From Wenzhouxiangella sp. (GTDB lineage: Bacteria > Pseudomonadota > Gammaproteobacteria > Xanthomonadales > Wenzhouxiangellaceae): a stretch of 34,016 nt of DNA. Below, piece after piece: positions 7,200 to 14,838 of this stretch. The stretch's first letter is position 1, and each line of letters starts with the position of its first letter. The DNA lies in NCBI GenBank assembly GCA_007131235.1, contig SLQY01000310.1, forward strand, positions 1 to 34,016, read 5' to 3'. Under the pieces are notes generated by a model, which ran no database searches, was not told where the DNA came from, and saw only the letters and a program-made list of their open reading frames with translations. The position numbers and the translations under genes were made by a program.

Positions 7200-8298
7200 T
7201 CAGGCCAGCCCGGCCTTGAGTTGGGCGGCGATGAACTCGTCGATGTCGCCATCGAGCACTTTCTGGGTATCAGAGCGTTCCACGCCAGTCCGCAAATCCT
7301 TGATCCGGGACTGATCGAGCACATAGTTGCGAATCTGGCTGCCCCAACCGATGTCGGACTTTTCGTCCTCGGCCGCCTGCGCCTTTTCCTGCTGTTTTTT
7401 CAGTTCCATCTCGTAGAGCTTGGCCCGCAGCTGGGCCATCGCGCGATCCTTGTTCTTGTGCTGGGATCGATCAGTCTGGCATTGGACGACAATACCCGAG
7501 GGCTCGTGAGTGATCCGAACGGCCGACTCGGTGCGGTTGACATGCTGACCACCGGCTCCCGAGGCTCGGTAGACATCAATGCGCAAATCGGCAGGATTGA
7601 TCTCGATATCGATATTGTCATCAACTTCCGGCGAAACAAAGACGCTGGCAAACGAGGTATGCCGCCTGTTGCCCGAATCGTACGGTGACTTGCGGACCAG
7701 GCGGTGAACGCCGGTCTCGGTCCGGCACCAGCCGAACGCATAGTCACCCTCGACCCGCACGGTGGCGCTCTTGATGCCGGCTTCTTCGCCGGCCGATACT
7801 TCGATCAACTCGGCTTTCCAGCCGCGCCGCTCGGCCCAGCGCAGGTACATGCGAAGCAGCATCTCGGCCCAGTCCTGGGCTTCGGTGCCGCCGGCACCGG
7901 CCTGGATATCGACAAAGCACGGCCGGTTGTCCATTTCACCGGCAAACATGCGCTGGAATTCCAGGTCGGCCACGCCGCGCTCAAGGCGTTTGAGATCATC
8001 GGCCACGCTGGCCATGGTTTCCTCGTCGTCCTCGGCCAGGGCCATGTCCAGCAATTCTGCCGCATCGCTGACGCCATCAATGACTTCGCGCTGGGCATCG
8101 ACCGAGCGTTCCAGATCGGCTCGCTCCTTGCCCAGCTTCTGGGCGTATTCAGGCTCGTCCCAGACCGACGGATCCTCAAGCTCGCGCGTTACTTCTTCGA
8201 GACGTTCCTGCTTGCCTTCGTAGTCAAAGGTACCCCCTAAGCGCAGCAACGCGGCGCTCCAGGTCTTCCAGCAGCAGTTTCAGCGAGGTCTGTTCCAT
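7200..8298 (-). CDS. prfB: Peptide chain release factor 2, made by programmed +1 frameshift
   Basis: Release factor 2 terminates translation at UGA and UAA. The coding sequence is in two frames: residues 1-24 from ATG at 8298 to a UGA at 8226-8224, then after skipping one T the second frame runs from 8225 to the stop at 7200. The joined product is 365 residues, the same length as E. coli RF2. The GAGGQ catalytic loop is present ([16 protein letters not shown]), and the stop-codon recognition tripeptide reads SPY rather than the usual SPF. The residue before SGAGGQ is alanine, not the threonine of E. coli K-12. An annotation pipeline may wrongly start this gene inside the second frame near 8249. 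Confidence 0.96.
8223..8238 (-). promoter_or_regulatory. prfB autoregulatory +1 frameshift site
   Basis: Read on the minus strand the site is AGGGGG TAC CTT TGA C. It combines a Shine-Dalgarno-like AGGGGG three bases before CTT, the slippery CTT codon, and an in-frame UGA followed by C, which is a weak termination context. This is the RF2 feedback device: when RF2 is scarce the ribosome pauses at UGA and slips forward one base. It differs from the E. coli site only in TAC for TAT. The two coding frames meet exactly here. Confidence 0.95.
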
Positions 8299-8427: not shown

Positions 8428-8459
8428 TGCTAGCATAACTTTCCAGGGAATCAGGAGAG
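8428..8459 (+). promoter_or_regulatory. Possible promoter and ribosome-binding stretch before the electron-transfer operon
   Basis: The 246-base divergent region between prfB and the ferric-reductase-like gene contains TGC-TAGCAT at 8428-8436, which fits an extended -10 element, with only a poor -35 (TTTTCC at 8409-8414). A strong purine run AGGAGAG follows at 8453-8459. The AGGAGAG is 13-18 bases from the ATG at 8471 and the TTG at 8476, which is longer than ideal. I saw no FNR-type TTGAT-N4-ATCAA or CRP-type site here. This is a weak, sequence-only prediction. Confidence 0.3.
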
Positions 8460-8544
8460 TTTTCGGCAGCATGGCTTGGGTCGGAGATACGGGAAGATTC
8501 GGGCGGCAGTTTGGAGCGTCAATCGACGCCGAGGTGTTGCCGTC

Positions 8545-9867
8545 GTGCTGATCAGCGCGCGCCTGGCTCGTGGGCTGGTCTGGGGCCTGGCGCTGGTACC
8601 GCTGGCCGTGTTCCTGGCCGGGCTGGGGGCACACGATTTCAGCTCTCTGTCGTCCATCCTCAACATGCTTGGTCGCCTGACCGGGGTACTGGGGCTGGCG
8701 CTGCTGCTGCTGGCCGCGGCCTTGAGTGCGCGCGTGCCCGGGTTCGATCAGCCGTTCGGGGGGTTGACCAAGCTCTGGCATACCCATCACCTGCTCGGCG
8801 CGGGGTCGCTGTTGCTGCTGCTGGCCCATCCGCTGCTGCTGGCCCTGGCCAGTGCCGCCCACGGTTACCACCTGCCGGTACAGATGCTGTTTCCACCGCT
8901 GAGCGACACGGCCACCTGGAGCGGCTGGCTGGCGCTGCTGCTGATGATGATCTTCCTGGCACCCAGCTTTGCCTTTTTCGGTCGGCCCAACTATGAGCGC
9001 TGGAAACGGATTCATGCCCTGGCCGGGCCGGCGGCGATCCTGGCCCTGGCCCACACCTTTCTGTTCAGCCGCACCATGCCGGCCAATCTCGATAAGGTGG
9101 TCTGGGGCCTGTTCGCACTGCTGGGCGTCGGCGCGGTGGCCTGGCGACTGGTGTTTTCACGCCGGGCCGGCCGGCTCAAGTACACCATCAGTGCAGTCGA
9201 GGCCGTGGCCAACAACGTGGTCGAGCTGACCCTGCAGCCGGAACGATCCGAGAAACGGCTGAAATACCAGGCCGGCAACTTTGTCTACATGACACCGCTG
9301 GACAAGAGCCTGGGTGCCGGCTGTGGTGAAGAACACCCCTATACCTTGTCGTCATCACCGAGCGAGCCGGACCTGCGCATTGCGATCAAGGATCTGGGTG
9401 ATGCCAGTCGCGCCATCCAGTCGATTCGTCCCGGCACCAAGGTTCGAATTGAAGGTCCGTATGGCCGCTTCTTTCCGGTCAAGGCCAACCCCAAGCAACC
9501 CGAGCTATGGGTCGCCGGCGGCATCGGCATTACGCCGTTCCTGGCCCGTCTGCGCCATCTCAAGGCGCTGGGCCAGGCCGCTGACGTGCACCTGGTTTAT
9601 GCCGTGCAGGATGAGGCGCGTGCCCTGTATGCGGCCGAGCTGCAGTCGCTCATCGACACCATCGAGGGTGCCCGGCTCACCTTTCACTACTTCTATCGCG
9701 AGGGGCCGATCAGCGCCGCCTACCTGGTCGAAACCTGCCCGGACCTGGACCAGCGCGAGGTCTATATCTGCGGTCCGCTGCCGCTCAACAAGCTCGTCCA
9801 GGATCATCTGCGCCGGATCGGCCGGCCCCTGTCCAGCATTCATACCGAGGAGTTCGAACTGCTATGA
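8545..9867 (+). CDS. Ferric-reductase-like transmembrane flavocytochrome (FRD/FNR fusion)
   Basis: A 440-residue inner-membrane protein predicted to move electrons from NAD(P)H through FAD to two b hemes. The first 200 residues hold about six hydrophobic segments with two histidine pairs, H82/H95 and H157/H170, each spaced 13 apart, as in ferric reductases and NADPH oxidases. The cytoplasmic half has an FAD-binding HPYTLSSSPSE (residues 264-274), the nucleotide-binding AGGIGITPF (324-332) and CGPLPL (409-414), and ends with EEFELL. I prefer the GTG at 8545, preceded by GAGGTG at 8531-8536; a TTG at 8476 is possible. Its stop overlaps the next gene (ATGA). The neighbours suggest it feeds a periplasmic and outer-membrane electron conduit; a ferric or flavin reductase role is the alternative. 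Confidence 0.88.
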   Translation: MLISARLARGLVWGLALVPLAVFLAGLGAHDFSSLSSILNMLGRLTGVLGLALLLLAAALSARVPGFDQPFGGLTKLWHTHHLLGAGSLLLLLAHPLLLALASAAHGYHLPVQMLFPPLSDTATWSGWLALLLMMIFLAPSFAFFGRPNYERWKRIHALAGPAAILALAHTFLFSRTMPANLDKVVWGLFALLGVGAVAWRLVFSRRAGRLKYTISAVEAVANNVVELTLQPERSEKRLKYQAGNFVYMTPLDKSLGAGCGEEHPYTLSSSPSEPDLRIAIKDLGDASRAIQSIRPGTKVRIEGPYGRFFPVKANPKQPELWVAGGIGITPFLARLRHLKALGQAADVHLVYAVQDEARALYAAELQSLIDTIEGARLTFHYFYREGPISAAYLVETCPDLDQREVYICGPLPLNKLVQDHLRRIGRPLSSIHTEEFELL

Positions 9868-10223
9868 AGAAATTCATGTTTGCCGCCTTCATTGCCTTCT
9901 GGTCCTGCATTGCCACCCTGCTGGCCGTGCATGCGATGAGCCCTGAGCCACGCTCAGCCGAGGCCGACGATGACCTGCCCGAGTACACCCTGGCCGACAT
10001 CGCCGAACACACCACCCTGGAAAGCTGCTGGATGGCAATCGAAGGCAAGGTTTACGACTTTACCGACTATATCCCGAAGCACCCCACTCCGCCTTTCGTG
10101 ATGGAGCAATGGTGCGGACGTGAAGCGACTGATGGCATGCGCACCAAGGGCTATGGCCCCGACCACTCGCCAGCCGCCTGGGCAATGATGGAGCCCTACC
10201 TGATCGGCACGCTGGCAGAGTGA
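9864..10223 (+). CDS. Exported cytochrome b5-like heme protein
   Basis: A 119-residue protein with a signal peptide or single membrane anchor (residues 1 to about 24, MKKFMFAAFIAFWSCIATLL) followed by an acidic linker and one cytochrome b5-like domain (about residues 39-118). The domain starts with YTLADIAEHTTLESCWMAI and GKVYDFTDYIPKHP, typical of the fold. The usual HPGG around the first heme ligand is changed to HPTPP (H73); H101 in GPDHSPAAW is the likely second ligand. Two cysteines, C55 and C84, could form a disulfide in the periplasm. The start overlaps the upstream flavocytochrome stop by 4 bases and its stop overlaps the decaheme start, so it is probably an electron shuttle between them. 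That role is inferred from position. Confidence 0.85.
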   Translation: MKKFMFAAFIAFWSCIATLLAVHAMSPEPRSAEADDDLPEYTLADIAEHTTLESCWMAIEGKVYDFTDYIPKHPTPPFVMEQWCGREATDGMRTKGYGPDHSPAAWAMMEPYLIGTLAE

Positions 10224-11170
10224 TCAACGTGGGCCGGCTGATGCGATCAAGGTTCGCGCTGGTTGCGCTGGCAGCGCTGAGCCTCACCCTGACGGCGCTT
10301 GCCAATGAAGCGAGCGTGCAGTTTCCCGATCACATTGCCAACTGCACGCGCTGCCACGGTGCCAGTGAAGATGACCCGGTCCTCGCCATCTTCGCCACGC
10401 CACACGCAGTGCTGGCTGATTCTCGCACCGGCATGGCAGATCAAGGCTGTGCGGCTTGTCACGGACCAAGCCTGGATCATGCCCGGCTGCCAGCGCGGGC
10501 CGGTGGGGCCGAGGTCGAGATTGCCTTTCACGGCGACCGCAAGGCCAGCACCCAGGTTCGCAACCAGGCCTGCCTGACCTGCCACGCCGGTGGCGACATG
10601 ATGCATTGGCAAGGAAGCGTACATGACTTCGATGGCATGGCCTGCGTGGACTGCCATCGCGTCCATCAACAACAGGATCCGGCCCTGGATCCGCTCCAAC
10701 AGGCACAGGCCTGCACCAGCTGCCACCAGGCCCAGCATGCCGAGTTCCATCGACCATTCGCCCATCCGGTTCATCAAGGCCAGATGCTGTGTTCGGACTG
10801 CCACAACCCGCACGGTGGTGCCGGCCCTTCCGACCTCCACGCCATGACGCTCAACGAAAGCTGCTACAGCTGCCATGCCGACAAGCGCGGACCGTTTCTG
10901 TGGGAGCACCAACCGGTGCGCGAGGACTGCACCCTGTGCCATCAGCCGCACGGCTCGGTGCATCGCGACCTGCTTGCCCAGCGCACGCCGTTTCTTTGCC
11001 AGCAGTGCCATATGAGCCAGTTCCACCCGTCGACTGCATTGAGCGCCACTGGCTTGCCTGGCGCAAGCATCCCGTCCGGCAGCCAGTCCATGCTGGGACG
11101 CGACTGCATGAATTGCCATGCGCAGGTTCATGGTTCCAATCACCCGTCCGGAGTGGGCCAGACGCGGTAG
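10220..11170 (+). CDS. Decaheme c-type cytochrome, MtrA/PioA/DmsE family
   Basis: A 316-residue periplasmic cytochrome with exactly ten CXXCH heme motifs, at C42, C77, C118, C142, C165, C191, C215, C237, C260 and C296. A signal peptide (core LVALAALSLTLTALA) ends near residue 29. Length, heme number and spacing fit MtrA, PioA and DmsE, which form a heme wire that inserts into an outer-membrane barrel and carries electrons across the periplasm and outer membrane. The GTG at 10220 overlaps the previous stop (GTGA); ATG at 10241 (MRSRFALVAL) is an equally reasonable start and gives a cleaner signal peptide. The barrel partner follows 21 bases downstream. Direction of flow, outward reduction or inward oxidation as in Fe(II) oxidisers, cannot be read from the sequence. 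Confidence 0.95.
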   Translation: MINVGRLMRSRFALVALAALSLTLTALANEASVQFPDHIANCTRCHGASEDDPVLAIFATPHAVLADSRTGMADQGCAACHGPSLDHARLPARAGGAEVEIAFHGDRKASTQVRNQACLTCHAGGDMMHWQGSVHDFDGMACVDCHRVHQQQDPALDPLQQAQACTSCHQAQHAEFHRPFAHPVHQGQMLCSDCHNPHGGAGPSDLHAMTLNESCYSCHADKRGPFLWEHQPVREDCTLCHQPHGSVHRDLLAQRTPFLCQQCHMSQFHPSTALSATGLPGASIPSGSQSMLGRDCMNCHAQVHGSNHPSGVGQTR

Positions 11171-11191
11171 GCCAGGGAGACCAAAACGCCG

Positions 11192-13411
11192 ATGAAGATT
11201 CGAACGCTTGTGCTGCTTTCTGCCGCTCCCGCCTGGCCGCTGGCTGTGGCTGCCGTCGAGCAGCCGGAGTTTCAACGCCTGACCCAGCCCGAGAACTACG
11301 TGGAAGTCGGTGCCGGCTGGGTCAGCGACGAGTCGGCCCGCTTTGGTCGCTACAACGCACTCTACCGGGATGGCCTGTTCGCGGTTCTTGGTCTGGAATA
11401 CCTGGTTCGGCCGCGGTTTGATGATCCCAGCCCACTGCATTGGCACGTCAGCGCGCGCGACCTGGGCCTTGGCAACAGGCAGGTCAGCCTGCGCGTGGGC
11501 CAGCAGGGGCGCTTTGGCCTGGAGGCCGGCTACCGAGAAAGGCGCTCCCGTGGCGGCGACGGCCTGGTCTCGGTCTACAACCACCGCGACCCGGCCAACC
11601 TGCGCTTGCCGACCGACTGGCAGCCGGCTGCCAATAGCGCCGGGATGAACCTGCAGCTGCCCGTCCTGCACGAGTTCAGCCTGGCACAGCGACGCCGCGA
11701 AACCCGGCTTGCTGCCTCGGCCAATCCGGGCGAGCGTTGGCAGATCAACGCCCAGGTCCGCCAGGAAGACCGTGACGGTACCAGCCTGCTGGCCGGGCTG
11801 TTTGGAAACTCCGGTGGCAATCCCAGGGCAGCTTTTCTGCCCGTGCCGGTGGATTACCGAACGCGCCTGTTCGACCTCAACCTGGCCTACGGCGACCGCC
11901 AACGCCAGCTGCGTCTTGCCTACCACGGCTCACTGTTTTCCAACAACGAACCGCAGCTCACCTTCGCCAATCCATTTTCTACCATTGGTGGATGGGCGAC
12001 CGGCTCCGGCTTCCCGGACGGGCGCGGAGCACTGGCCCTGGCACCGGACAACCAGTTTCATCAGCTCAGCCTGGCTGGCACCTGGCAGCTTCGCCCTGCC
12101 CTGCACCTCAGCGGCCAGGTAGCCTCCGGCCGCATGACCCAGAACGAGCCCTTTCTCGCCTATACCGCCAATCCGCTGCTGGCCCAGGCCGTCGTCCAGC
12201 CGCTGCCGATCGACTCGCTCGACGGTCGCATCGACACCACGACGGTTCACTTGCGCCTGAGCGGCAGGAACTTCACACGCCTGAACTGGAACCTGAGTTA
12301 CCGGCTGGACGACCGCGACAACCGCACCGAGCTGCACGAGTGGGTGTACGTTGGCGGCGACTCCCAGGTCCAGGACACCAGTCCTGCCAGCAGCCGACGC
12401 CGCTACAACCTGCCCCAGGACTACCGCCACCAGCGCCTGCGCCTGGATGGACAGTGGCGGCTGGATGAGCGGACCCGACTGGGCAGCACCATTCAGCAAA
12501 GTCGTACCGAGCGCAGTTTCAGTGCCCGTGAGCAGGTCGACGAAACCCTGCTTGAGTTCAACGCCCGCCATCGCGCCGGCCATCGTGTGCAACTTGGCGC
12601 ACAGATACACTGGGCCGACCGCGACGGCAGCGCCTACGATGGAGCGGCCGCTTTTCTGGCCAACCACGACCCCGCCTACACCGACACCCTGGCCGGCCAA
12701 TGGGCCAATCTGCCTGCTCTTCGCATGTACCACCTCGCTGATCGCCGTCGCCAGCGCCAGGCCGTCTCGGCCAACCTCACCCCGCATGAACACTGGGCCC
12801 TGGGCCTGGAGGCTGCGCGTGCCGTCGATGACTATCGGAACTCCAGTATCGGCCTGACCGAAAGCCGCCAGGCCCTGTTGTCGACGACGCTGACCTGGGC
12901 TCCGTCAAACCAGCTATCGGCGCATGCGTTTTACACCTGGGAACGCCTGGCCAGTGATCAGGCGGGTTTCAGCTTTCGCGGCGGGGCCAACCGGCTCATT
13001 GACATCGCCGATCCCGAGCGCGCCTGGGCGGTCGACCATCGTGACCGCATCGACACGCTCGGTGCCGGCCTGCAGCGCTACCTGAACGATGGCCGCATCA
13101 AGCTGCAGCTGGATTGGGTTCATGCGCGGGCAAAGGCGAAACAGCAAGTTGCCGCCGGCACGTCATTGACCGCCGCCGCATTGCCAACGGTGAGCAACCG
13201 GCTGGATTCGGTCATGCTGCGGGCCAGCTACCGGCTCTCGGAACCGCTCAGCCTGCACTTCCGCTACTGGTTCGAGCGCTTTCGTTCAGACGACTGGGCT
13301 TTCGACGGAGTCGGGCCGGATCAGCTGGCCAATATCATTCTGCCCGGCGAAACGGCTGACAACTACCGGGTTCATGTCGCCTCCGTCAGCCTGCGCTTCC
13401 GATTCCAGTAG
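11192..13411 (+). CDS. Decaheme-associated outer-membrane beta-barrel protein, MtrB/PioB family
   Basis: A 739-residue outer-membrane barrel expected to sheathe the decaheme cytochrome and let electrons cross the membrane. Residues 1 to about 21 are a signal peptide (MKIRTLVLLSAAPAWPLAVAA). The remainder is rich in alternating hydrophobic and aromatic strands with polar charged turns, such as QVSLRVGQQGRFGLEAGYRE near residue 95, and it ends with strands finishing in VSLRFRFQ. The length fits MtrB/PioB. I see no cysteine in the whole protein, so the N-terminal CXXC found in Shewanella MtrB is missing, as is reported for some PioB/MtoB-like members. It is the last gene of the four-gene unit and abuts the convergent arginine deiminase gene with no spacer. 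Confidence 0.9.
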   Translation: MKIRTLVLLSAAPAWPLAVAAVEQPEFQRLTQPENYVEVGAGWVSDESARFGRYNALYRDGLFAVLGLEYLVRPRFDDPSPLHWHVSARDLGLGNRQVSLRVGQQGRFGLEAGYRERRSRGGDGLVSVYNHRDPANLRLPTDWQPAANSAGMNLQLPVLHEFSLAQRRRETRLAASANPGERWQINAQVRQEDRDGTSLLAGLFGNSGGNPRAAFLPVPVDYRTRLFDLNLAYGDRQRQLRLAYHGSLFSNNEPQLTFANPFSTIGGWATGSGFPDGRGALALAPDNQFHQLSLAGTWQLRPALHLSGQVASGRMTQNEPFLAYTANPLLAQAVVQPLPIDSLDGRIDTTTVHLRLSGRNFTRLNWNLSYRLDDRDNRTELHEWVYVGGDSQVQDTSPASSRRRYNLPQDYRHQRLRLDGQWRLDERTRLGSTIQQSRTERSFSAREQVDETLLEFNARHRAGHRVQLGAQIHWADRDGSAYDGAAAFLANHDPAYTDTLAGQWANLPALRMYHLADRRRQRQAVSANLTPHEHWALGLEAARAVDDYRNSSIGLTESRQALLSTTLTWAPSNQLSAHAFYTWERLASDQAGFSFRGGANRLIDIADPERAWAVDHRDRIDTLGAGLQRYLNDGRIKLQLDWVHARAKAKQQVAAGTSLTAAALPTVSNRLDSVMLRASYRLSEPLSLHFRYWFERFRSDDWAFDGVGPDQLANIILPGETADNYRVHVASVSLRFRFQ

Positions 13412-14656
13412 TCAGACCGCGCCGCGGGCCAGCGGCATGGTCATACAGCGGCATCCACCGCCGCCACGTGACAGCTCGGCACCGTCCATGGTCACCACCA
13501 CCGGGCGGTCGGAATCCAGGGCCTTAGATCCGGCAATGATGTCGGCCGCCCTGAGCACGCCGAATCCGGCTCGGTCCAGCGCCTCGACCGTGTACTGGTT
13601 ATGGCCGTAACCGATGATCTTGCCCGGCCCGAAGGCAAAGAAGTTGGCACCGCTGGCCCACTGCTCGCGCTCCTGGTGGAAGTCATCATCACCGCCGCAG
13701 TTGATCGGCTTAAGGTCCAGCCCCAGCGCCGACAACGCCTCCAGTACCCCGTCATACTCTCGAATCGTGGCCTGGGTAGCGTTATCGAAGCGGCAGTGAA
13801 ACGCACGGCAGCGCTGCCGTCCGGTGATCAAGGGTGGAAACACCACGCACTTGTCGCGGTCGACCATCGTGAAAATCATGTCGAGGTGAATGGTTGCCCG
13901 GGTCTTCGGGATTTCCACCACGACGAAGTTGCGCACCGGCCCCTGGCTGGCAAAGGCCCGCATGATCCGGTCAACTCCGGAAACCGAGGTGCGTTCGCTG
14001 TACCCGATGACAACCAGGTCTTCGCGAATGACAAGCAGATCGCCGCCCTCGATGGTCAGCTCGGCATCGCGATTCTCGGTGCCATCAAAGTAGAAGCCCT
14101 CACTGTCAATATCCGGGTGATACTTGAACACCGCCTTCAGCAACAGTGCTTCGGCCACGCGCGCCTTGTAGGCCATGGAACCGATGACGACCCGCCGATT
14201 GAGACACATCGTGGCATCTCGGGTAAAAAACGTGTTGGGCAGAGGCGGAATGGCATAGCGTGAGGGGTCCAGGTACTTCTCCAGGCTGATGGCCTTTTTC
14301 GGCGTGCCCTCAATCAGCCGGGCGGACAAGGACTCCGGCGGCATCGCGCCCAGTTCGTCAATCAGCTCAGGACACTCGTAAAGTTTGCACAGGGCCTCGA
14401 CCAGTGCCGAGCGCACCTGCTCCTGGCCCAGTACCTCGGTCAACAGGGCGCGCAACTCCACCGTGCGGGCCACGGTCGAAAGCACGCCCTTGAGTTGTTG
14501 ATGCTCTTCGCTGGCCAGGCCCAGGTTGAGAATGTCGTCGTAGAGGACGTCGGCGGCCGTTTGCGGAGTCATATTCTCGATTTCCTGGCCCGGGGTGTGG
14601 ACTACCACCGTCTGCAAGGGTCCGATCTCTGAATTCAGGTCGATTCGAATAGTCAT
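13412..14656 (-). CDS. arcA: Arginine deiminase
   Basis: Predicted to hydrolyse arginine to citrulline and ammonia, the first step of the arginine deiminase pathway. The 414-residue protein has the guanidine-modifying enzyme motifs: FTRDATMCLN, the EGGDLLV glutamate region, TIHLDMIFTMVD with the catalytic histidine and aspartate, and the C-terminal GGGGCRCMTMP where C404 corresponds to the nucleophile. I chose the ATG at 14656 because MTIRIDLNSEIGPL is a family-like N-terminus and AGGA lies about 10 bases upstream. No ornithine carbamoyltransferase, carbamate kinase or arginine/ornithine antiporter gene is adjacent, unlike classical arc operons. The pathway may be completed elsewhere, or the enzyme may serve nitrogen release or acid resistance only. 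Confidence 0.93.
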   Translation of the reverse strand: MTIRIDLNSEIGPLQTVVVHTPGQEIENMTPQTAADVLYDDILNLGLASEEHQQLKGVLSTVARTVELRALLTEVLGQEQVRSALVEALCKLYECPELIDELGAMPPESLSARLIEGTPKKAISLEKYLDPSRYAIPPLPNTFFTRDATMCLNRRVVIGSMAYKARVAEALLLKAVFKYHPDIDSEGFYFDGTENRDAELTIEGGDLLVIREDLVVIGYSERTSVSGVDRIMRAFASQGPVRNFVVVEIPKTRATIHLDMIFTMVDRDKCVVFPPLITGRQRCRAFHCRFDNATQATIREYDGVLEALSALGLDLKPINCGGDDDFHQEREQWASGANFFAFGPGKIIGYGHNQYTVEALDRAGFGVLRAADIIAGSKALDSDRPVVVTMDGAELSRGGGGCRCMTMPLARGAV

Positions 14657-14838
14657 GACTGAACATTCCTGTCTGGTGAGCGCATGGCGGTATTTTGGCC
14701 GCGTATTGACTATGAAAATGCCTGCAAAATTCATGGAATAAGCAGGCCGCGAATGCAACAATAAAGGATGGGCGAAGTGTACGGGCTTTGGGCGAAGTCG
14801 TCAGCTCGAAGAATGAATTGACTTTTGGCGAATCAAAA

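Follow-up and report, generated by a model that had tools for sequence, protein, structure and literature searches.

Outer-membrane electron conduits that consist of an MtrA-type decahaem cytochrome and an MtrB barrel (MtrAB) are, in the literature cited here, mostly tied to quinone-linked proteins. Baker et al. 2022 report MtrCAB in Wenzhouxiangella and CymA homologues in most MtrCAB groups, and the main text of that paper contains neither 'ferric reductase' nor 'cytochrome b' (PMC8805035). A Methylobacter cluster carries MtrAB and monohaem c cytochromes and lacks MtrC (PMC13322032), and in Shewanella MtrAB needs no MtrC to reduce soluble Fe(III) chelates (PMC7096707, PMC7198977). Here we analyse a cluster in a Wenzhouxiangella-like gammaproteobacterium in which the genes for MtrAB follow those for a ferric-reductase-like flavocytochrome (FRD) and a cytochrome b5. 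The window, by which we mean the whole stretch of DNA analysed, is contig SLQY01000310.1 of assembly GCA_007131235.1 (34,016 nucleotides), and the host genome measures 3.3 Mb in 355 contigs, is 93.7 % complete and has one MtrB.

We propose, with a probability of about 0.58, that the cluster encodes a quinone-independent outward export route in which electrons would pass from NAD(P)H to FAD, two haems b, b5, MtrA and the exterior. If true, feeding MtrAB from NAD(P)H would make extracellular electron transfer independent of the quinone pool and would account for the presence of MtrAB where neither a CymA/NapC nor a MenD gene can be detected. It would also offer a small set of four genes with which laboratory strains could be wired directly to NAD(P)H.

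The four genes and their proteins

An earlier note on this DNA had described four genes joined by 4-base overlaps and a 21-base gap between MtrA and MtrB. The array is confirmed, with all four open reading frames (ORFs) found on the plus strand at those positions:

8545..9867, plus strand: FRD, a flavocytochrome of the NOX/FRE superfamily with six transmembrane (TM) segments, two haems b and FAD and NAD(P)H domains (ORF, Pfam, haem histidines, fold); proposed entry point for electrons of NAD(P)H in the cytosol
9864..9867, plus strand: ATGA stop/start overlap of FRD and b5 (ORF ends), with probable translational coupling
9864..10223, plus strand: cytochrome b5 with an N-terminal hydrophobic segment, signal or anchor (ORF, Pfam, histidines); proposed periplasmic relay
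10220..10223, plus strand: GTGA stop/start overlap of b5 and MtrA (ORF ends)
10220..11170, plus strand: MtrA/DmsE-type decahaem c cytochrome with ten CXXCH motifs and a GTG start (NCBIfam, motif count)
11192..13411, plus strand: MtrB/PioB-type outer-membrane barrel (Pfam, NCBIfam)
13412-14671, minus strand: arginine deiminase gene (Pfam), which ends one base after MtrB

FRD starts with GTG, and the longest ORF of its frame begins at 8476. The same 4-base overlap of FRD and b5 is found at loci L107, L111, L112, L116, L119, L120 and L122 of relatives. The four genes each show a dN/dS of about 0.14 in one pairwise comparison, made with the relative G022.

The protein identities given in the earlier note are borne out by strong Pfam and NCBIfam domain matches. 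FRD matches Ferric_reduct (PF01794, E 3.2e-11), FAD_binding_8 (7.1e-10) and NAD_binding_1 (3.9e-10) and has six hydrophobic segments. An alignment of the window's FRD with those of 12 relatives shows no change at the expected haem histidines, H81/H95 (HX13H) and H157/H170 (HX12H), in any of the 13 sequences, and this spacing is that of NOX enzymes. FRD thus has the traits of the NOX/FRE branch, namely six TM, histidine pairs on TM3 and TM5, and the FAD and NAD(P)H domains. The nearest solved protein by both sequence and fold is the bacterial NADPH oxidase SpNOX (fold match to 8qt6, E 4.6e-22, TM-score 0.73/0.80), the fold being that of a structure model of moderate quality (pLDDT 78.9, with block means of 45-67 over residues 131-210, around TM4-TM5). 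SpNOX makes no distinction between NADH and NADPH and is able to reduce cytochrome c, and the direction of electrons in FRD proteins is from the cytoplasmic to the outer side (PMC11031084). A second FRD protein, with 31 % identity, lies in G000 (contig 343, 3330-4658; L105) beside genes that by eye resemble those of a cytochrome oxidase.

The b5 protein matches PF00173 at 4.2e-19, and its axial histidines H73 and H101, together with C55 and C84, are identical in 13/13 aligned sequences. Its model (pLDDT 86.3) consists of an N-terminal helix (residues 2-25) and the b5 domain. The term 'exported' rests on the hydrophobic N-terminus (residues 4-22), which may be either a cleaved signal or a membrane anchor. 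The best solved match and closest solved relative is 1cxy, a cytochrome b5 (E 6.6e-31) that we take to be Ectothiorhodospira vacuolata b558.

MtrA scores 283.9 bits against TIGR03508 (DmsE decahaem; cut-off 192.2) and contains exactly ten CXXCH. Residues 36-311 align with chain A of 6r2q, presumably the Shewanella baltica MtrCAB structure, a chain that carries the name of another enzyme in the file. MtrB matches Pfam MtrB_PioB at E 2.4e-134 and TIGR03509 with 405 bits (cut-off 240). The locus therefore has both elements that define an MtrAB conduit, a decahaem cytochrome of the MtrA/DmsE family and an adjoining barrel of the MtrB/PioB family. A reductase operon of the DmsEFAB type is ruled out, since there are no DmsA or DmsB genes beside the cluster; the right flank carries arginine deiminase and a kinase (Pfam) and the left flank prfB and lysS (by eye). 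By eye, no fifth co-directional operon gene was noticed in the flanks of 10 loci. As side observations, the MtrA of G015 (L086 / L106) is broken into ORFs of three and seven haems by a frameshift or an assembly error, and in G000 (contig 104, 1-1512; L102) a contig end cuts off a multihaem ORF that has 8 CXXCH and is hydrophobic near its N-terminus.

Linkage and co-distribution of FRD-b5 and MtrAB

Related loci were collected by scanning genome contigs with the FRD alignment, and the best 80 of at least 577 were kept, which makes them a selection and not a census. The named relatives among these 80 are Wenzhouxiangella, Wenzhouxiangellaceae, W. limi, Lysobacterales/Lysobacteraceae, Pseudomonadales, Haliea, Porticoccaceae and unclassified gammaproteobacterial metagenome-assembled genomes; by contig coordinates several coincide with genomes of the same-genus set (for example, L107 is G022, and L110, W. 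limi, is G017), and the assignment to the genus rests on this. Seventeen of the FRDs are close (51-84 % identity) and 63 distant (24-37 %). The b5 gene lies directly downstream of FRD at 16 of the 17 close loci, the remaining one (L117) stopping at a contig end, and at 29/63 distant loci, including those of candidate-phyla bacteria, archaea (some of them; both among L123-L185) and Betaproteobacteria. In the sequence compared, up to 9 kb on either side of FRD, MtrAB is present at 11/17 close loci and at 0/63 distant ones. Because FRD-b5 pairs without MtrAB are widespread, we consider FRD-b5 a module of its own.

Relative to MtrAB, FRD-b5 occurs in arrangements that we group into classes A-E (ARRANGEMENTS). 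Class A is the colinear order FRD-b5-MtrA-MtrB, seen in the window, G015 (where MtrA is frame-broken), G018, G021, G022, G026, G029 and G030, and on partial contigs in G008, G011 and G028. FRD-b5 lies on the strand opposite MtrAB in class B (G003, G010, G016, G024 and G041, about 5 kb apart in the last, as well as G400 of a class-wide sample), and class C has the order MtrA-MtrB-FRD-b5 (L115, L118, L121 and L117, the b5 of L117 lying beyond the contig end). The order in class D is that of class A with a very diverged MtrB (Haliea, Porticoccaceae), while in class E a different FRD (28-31 % identity, no b5) is divergent from MtrAB (G055, G064, G085, G097).

The MtrBs of classes A, B, C and D sit at several separate places on the MtrB tree, and the Wenzhouxiangellaceae FRDs form one group on the FRD tree (SH-aLRT 93). 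The MtrB tree requires six or more changes of linkage; both trees are quick ones with open forks, and part of B and C falls in one poorly resolved larger group. FRD-b5 thus appears to be a portable exporter that was coupled to the MtrAB wire several times. The earlier note depended on the four families occurring together in relatives, and FRD-b5 does stand beside MtrAB in several arrangements and lineages. Of the distinct four-gene module that it proposed, the recurrent adjacency is upheld, but an obligate four-gene unit is ruled out by the FRD-b5 pairs that stand alone elsewhere. In two further families of the order (L095, L096, L097, L098), a second distant FRD subfamily without b5 is divergent beside MtrAB, and the MtrB clade of these loci is sister to that of the window.

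The gene next to the cluster gives a further view of this linkage. An arginine-deiminase-like gene follows FRD-b5 without MtrAB at L108, L109 and L112 (by eye). Colinear MtrAB lies between FRD-b5 and this gene in the window and G022, and in G003 the place is taken by an inverted MtrAB of another lineage (by eye). The left flank prfB-lysS is common to the window, G022, L108 and L109 and not to L112 and G003 (outside the window, by eye).

Co-distribution was counted in 101 genomes (100 relatives and the own genome), with FRD called above 600 bits and MtrB at E 0.001 or better; neither counts nor Fisher p values are corrected for kinship. FRD is present in 26 of the 51 genomes with MtrB (41 of these 51 MtrBs exceed the family cut-off) versus 2 of the 50 without. 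Within the genus the figures are 21/22 versus 2/8 (Fisher p 3e-4); the MtrB of G009 is a fragment of 21.7 bits only, and counting G009 as MtrB-negative gives 20/21 versus 3/9. The single MtrB genome of the genus without FRD, G008, has b5 at a contig end, and the two MtrB-negative FRD carriers are 65 % and 89 % complete. Outside the genus, MtrB was found in 9/9 close-FRD genomes checked, two of them below the family cut-off (G107-G109 are G042, G035 and G041 of the relatives set). The class-wide sample of 369 genomes, in which scoring was confined to the top 3-4 candidates of each genome, yielded FRD (E 1e-60) in 5, MtrB in 28, and both in 2, namely the own genome and G400, in which FRD and MtrB adjoin.

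Electron donors, acceptors and direction

In the proposed export route, NAD(P)H would reduce the FAD of FRD, and its two haems b would carry electrons across the inner membrane to cytochrome b5. The b5 protein, either soluble or tethered and perhaps helped by a further cytochrome of the periplasm, would relay them to MtrA, and MtrA inside MtrB would conduct them through the outer membrane. We propose soluble acceptors such as Fe(III) chelates and electron shuttles because no MtrC was found. The potential of NAD(P)H fits Mtr haems at 0 to -400 mV, whereas that of ubiquinol is too high. This range, about 0 to -400 mV, is the one given for Mtr haems in PMC7198977.

The own genome, at 93.7 % completeness, gave no match to CymA/NapC/NirT (PF03264) or to MtrC (TIGR03507), so a canonical Mtr system with a distant CymA or MtrC is rejected. 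Its best MenD match has 76 bits (cut-off 244.2), a test that covers MenD and not the futalosine menaquinone route. The route without a quinol-linked donor put forward in the earlier note is therefore supported in the own genome, but CymA-like clusters coexist with it in the genus. NapC is present in all eight MtrB genomes of the genus that have MtrC (above the cut-off in seven, a fragment in G005) and in 2 of the 14 without MtrC (G018, G021), weak MtrC matches in G003, G009 and G016 being counted as absent; G001 and G002 have FRD and no detected MtrB, yet NapC is present. The MtrC-bearing genomes keep FRD-b5, on another contig or opposed, and FRD-b5 coexists with full MtrCAB plus CymA-like clusters in the same genus. 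Quinol feed and FRD-b5 feed are thus not exclusive.

It is conceivable that the FRD haems are themselves fed by ubiquinol, in the way suggested for the FRD-like proteins that PCC3/PCC4 have in the inner membrane; quinone-active two-haem b proteins have been proposed with porin-cytochrome clusters (He et al. 2017, PMC5566968). We regard this as very improbable here, given that FRD has FAD and NAD(P)H domains of its own, that no MenD exceeds the cut-off in the own genome and that the potential of ubiquinol is too high for haems in the range quoted above from PMC7198977.

The direction of flow could also be reversed, with Fe(II) or a cathode supplying MtrAB and b5-FRD reducing NAD(P)+, but this we judge improbable. 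NAD(P)+, with a potential near -320 mV, is too low for most environmental donors. Inward flow would oppose the cytoplasm-to-outside movement of electrons in FRD proteins (PMC11031084), and the genus is described from genomes as aerobic, with one strain also denitrifying (PMC7691419). What speaks for uptake is that electron flow through the Mtr complex in liposomes can run in either direction (PMC7198977), together with the failure to find a NapC-family quinol donor in the own genome.

Outward export of this kind would by-pass complex I and move negative charge out of the cell, and for this reason a reductant disposal valve, or the reduction of external metals or oxidants, seems likelier than energy-conserving respiration. 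With complex I by-passed and energy not conserved, a 'metal respiration' reading of FRD-b5-MtrAB is doubtful. More tentatively, at somewhat less than even odds, we suggest that the physiological acceptor of this NOX homologue is b5 feeding MtrAB and that the system serves as a reductant and charge/pH valve, especially for alkaliphiles. Such a valve would export the electrons of NAD(P)H, keep protons in the cytoplasm and could reduce low-potential external acceptors beyond the reach of ubiquinol.

Several observations weigh against quinone-independent export. One is the periplasmic gap: MtrA extends about 20-30 Å into a periplasm of about 200 Å (PMC7096707, PMC7198977), and with so short a reach an inner-membrane-anchored b5 could hardly meet MtrA unaided. 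This gap is the weak point of the proposal, and to bridge it b5 would have to be set free as a shuttle or be helped by a partner. The absences reported above come from a genome that is 93.7 % complete and in 355 contigs. The association of MtrC with NapC in the genus (Fisher p 2.2e-4 on 21 rows) amounts to just 2-3 independent pairs, G018 and G021 have NapC proteins alongside the colinear operon, and outside the genus NapC is present in 3/9 FRD genomes and missing from 6/9. In W. limi (L110) FRD-b5 is unlinked to MtrAB, and a TonB-receptor-like ORF (by eye; 12177-14396, on the strand opposite FRD-b5 and downstream of it) lies about 1.5 kb further on, a hint of iron uptake. Among six Betaproteobacteria with distant FRD-b5, MtrB was found in 2/6 and not in 4/6, and 3/5 FRD-b5 genomes of the class-wide sample have no MtrB (E 1e-20) and no MtrAB beside FRD-b5. 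From these FRD-b5 genomes without MtrB it follows that FRD-b5 has other uses.

Some of the same observations would suit an FRD-b5 that is an independent exporter, co-operonic with MtrAB by a shared signal and with no direct electron hand-over. It might then act as an assimilatory ferric reductase, a superoxide-making NADPH oxidase or a source of reductant for periplasmic enzymes. The distant loci, with b5 in 29/63 and MtrAB in none, the genomes without MtrB and the W. limi ORF are all in line with this, as are reports that SpNOX produces superoxide without being a ferric reductase itself (PMC5676040) and that some PF01794 clusters contain an iron transporter gene (PMC8238504). It is less easily reconciled with the four-base overlaps, the repeated adjacency to different MtrAB lineages and the near-complete co-distribution in the genus even where FRD-b5 and MtrAB are unlinked; nor was an iron-uptake gene noticed by eye beside the linked operons, in the flanks of the window and 10 loci. 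We consider an independent exporter unlikely and retain quinone-independent export through MtrAB as the preferred reading.

Flanking sequence and comparison with known systems

To the left of the cluster, prfB (release factor 2) shows at 8220-8296 on the minus strand an apparent programmed-frameshift signature, AGGGGGTACCTTTGAC, and its N-terminal piece lies in another frame (both by eye). The stretch 8428-8551 upstream of FRD contains an extended -10-like element, TGCTAGCAT, which reads TGCTAGGAT in G011 and G028. This element and an AGGAG-like stretch recur upstream of FRD in G015, G022, G011 and G028. A possible leader ORF of 26 codons (8471-8551, by eye) overlaps the FRD start with its end. 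To the right, the arginine-deiminase-like gene is on the opposite strand in some of the 10 loci and follows FRD-b5 both with and without MtrAB.

Among the matches listed in searches of open-licence full texts, which left subscription papers and bioRxiv preprints outside, we found no description of FRD-b5 with MtrAB. Each part is known, and it is the combination FRD-b5-MtrAB that appears to be undescribed in the open-licence literature searched. As in MtrCAB/CymA of Shewanella and relatives, a decahaem MtrA and an MtrB barrel form the outer-membrane wire. Unlike there, no MtrC or CymA was detected in the own genome, and the flavocytochrome and b5 of the window would replace the quinol dehydrogenase. 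FRD has the six TM, the two haems b, the FAD and NAD(P)H domains and the fold in common with SpNOX and other bacterial NADPH oxidases; their known acceptor is O2, whereas FRD stands together with an export-type b5 and a cytochrome conduit through the outer membrane.

Other systems resemble the inner-membrane part of the cluster. In Fre-MsrQ-MsrP of E. coli, too, an FRD protein moves electrons that come from a flavin through the inner membrane and delivers them to a partner in the periplasm. That partner is a molybdenum enzyme, while in the window the flavin domain is fused, the partner would be b5/MtrA and the path apparently leads on to the cell surface. MsrQ-like flavinylated systems also use PF01794 proteins as extracytosolic exporters, often with the NAD-binding domain PF00175, but their partners are flavinylated by ApbE, and b5 and MtrB go unmentioned in the main text of that paper (PMC8238504). 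Closest in outline are PCC3/PCC4 of Fe(II) oxidizers (PMC5566968), which likewise combine a porin-cytochrome cluster with an FRD-like two-haem inner-membrane protein. Their proteins have five TM with two WX3HX13H motifs and are proposed to be quinone-active, and no flavin domain is described in the section compared; FRD differs in having six hydrophobic segments, HX12H as its second histidine pair and a flavin domain.

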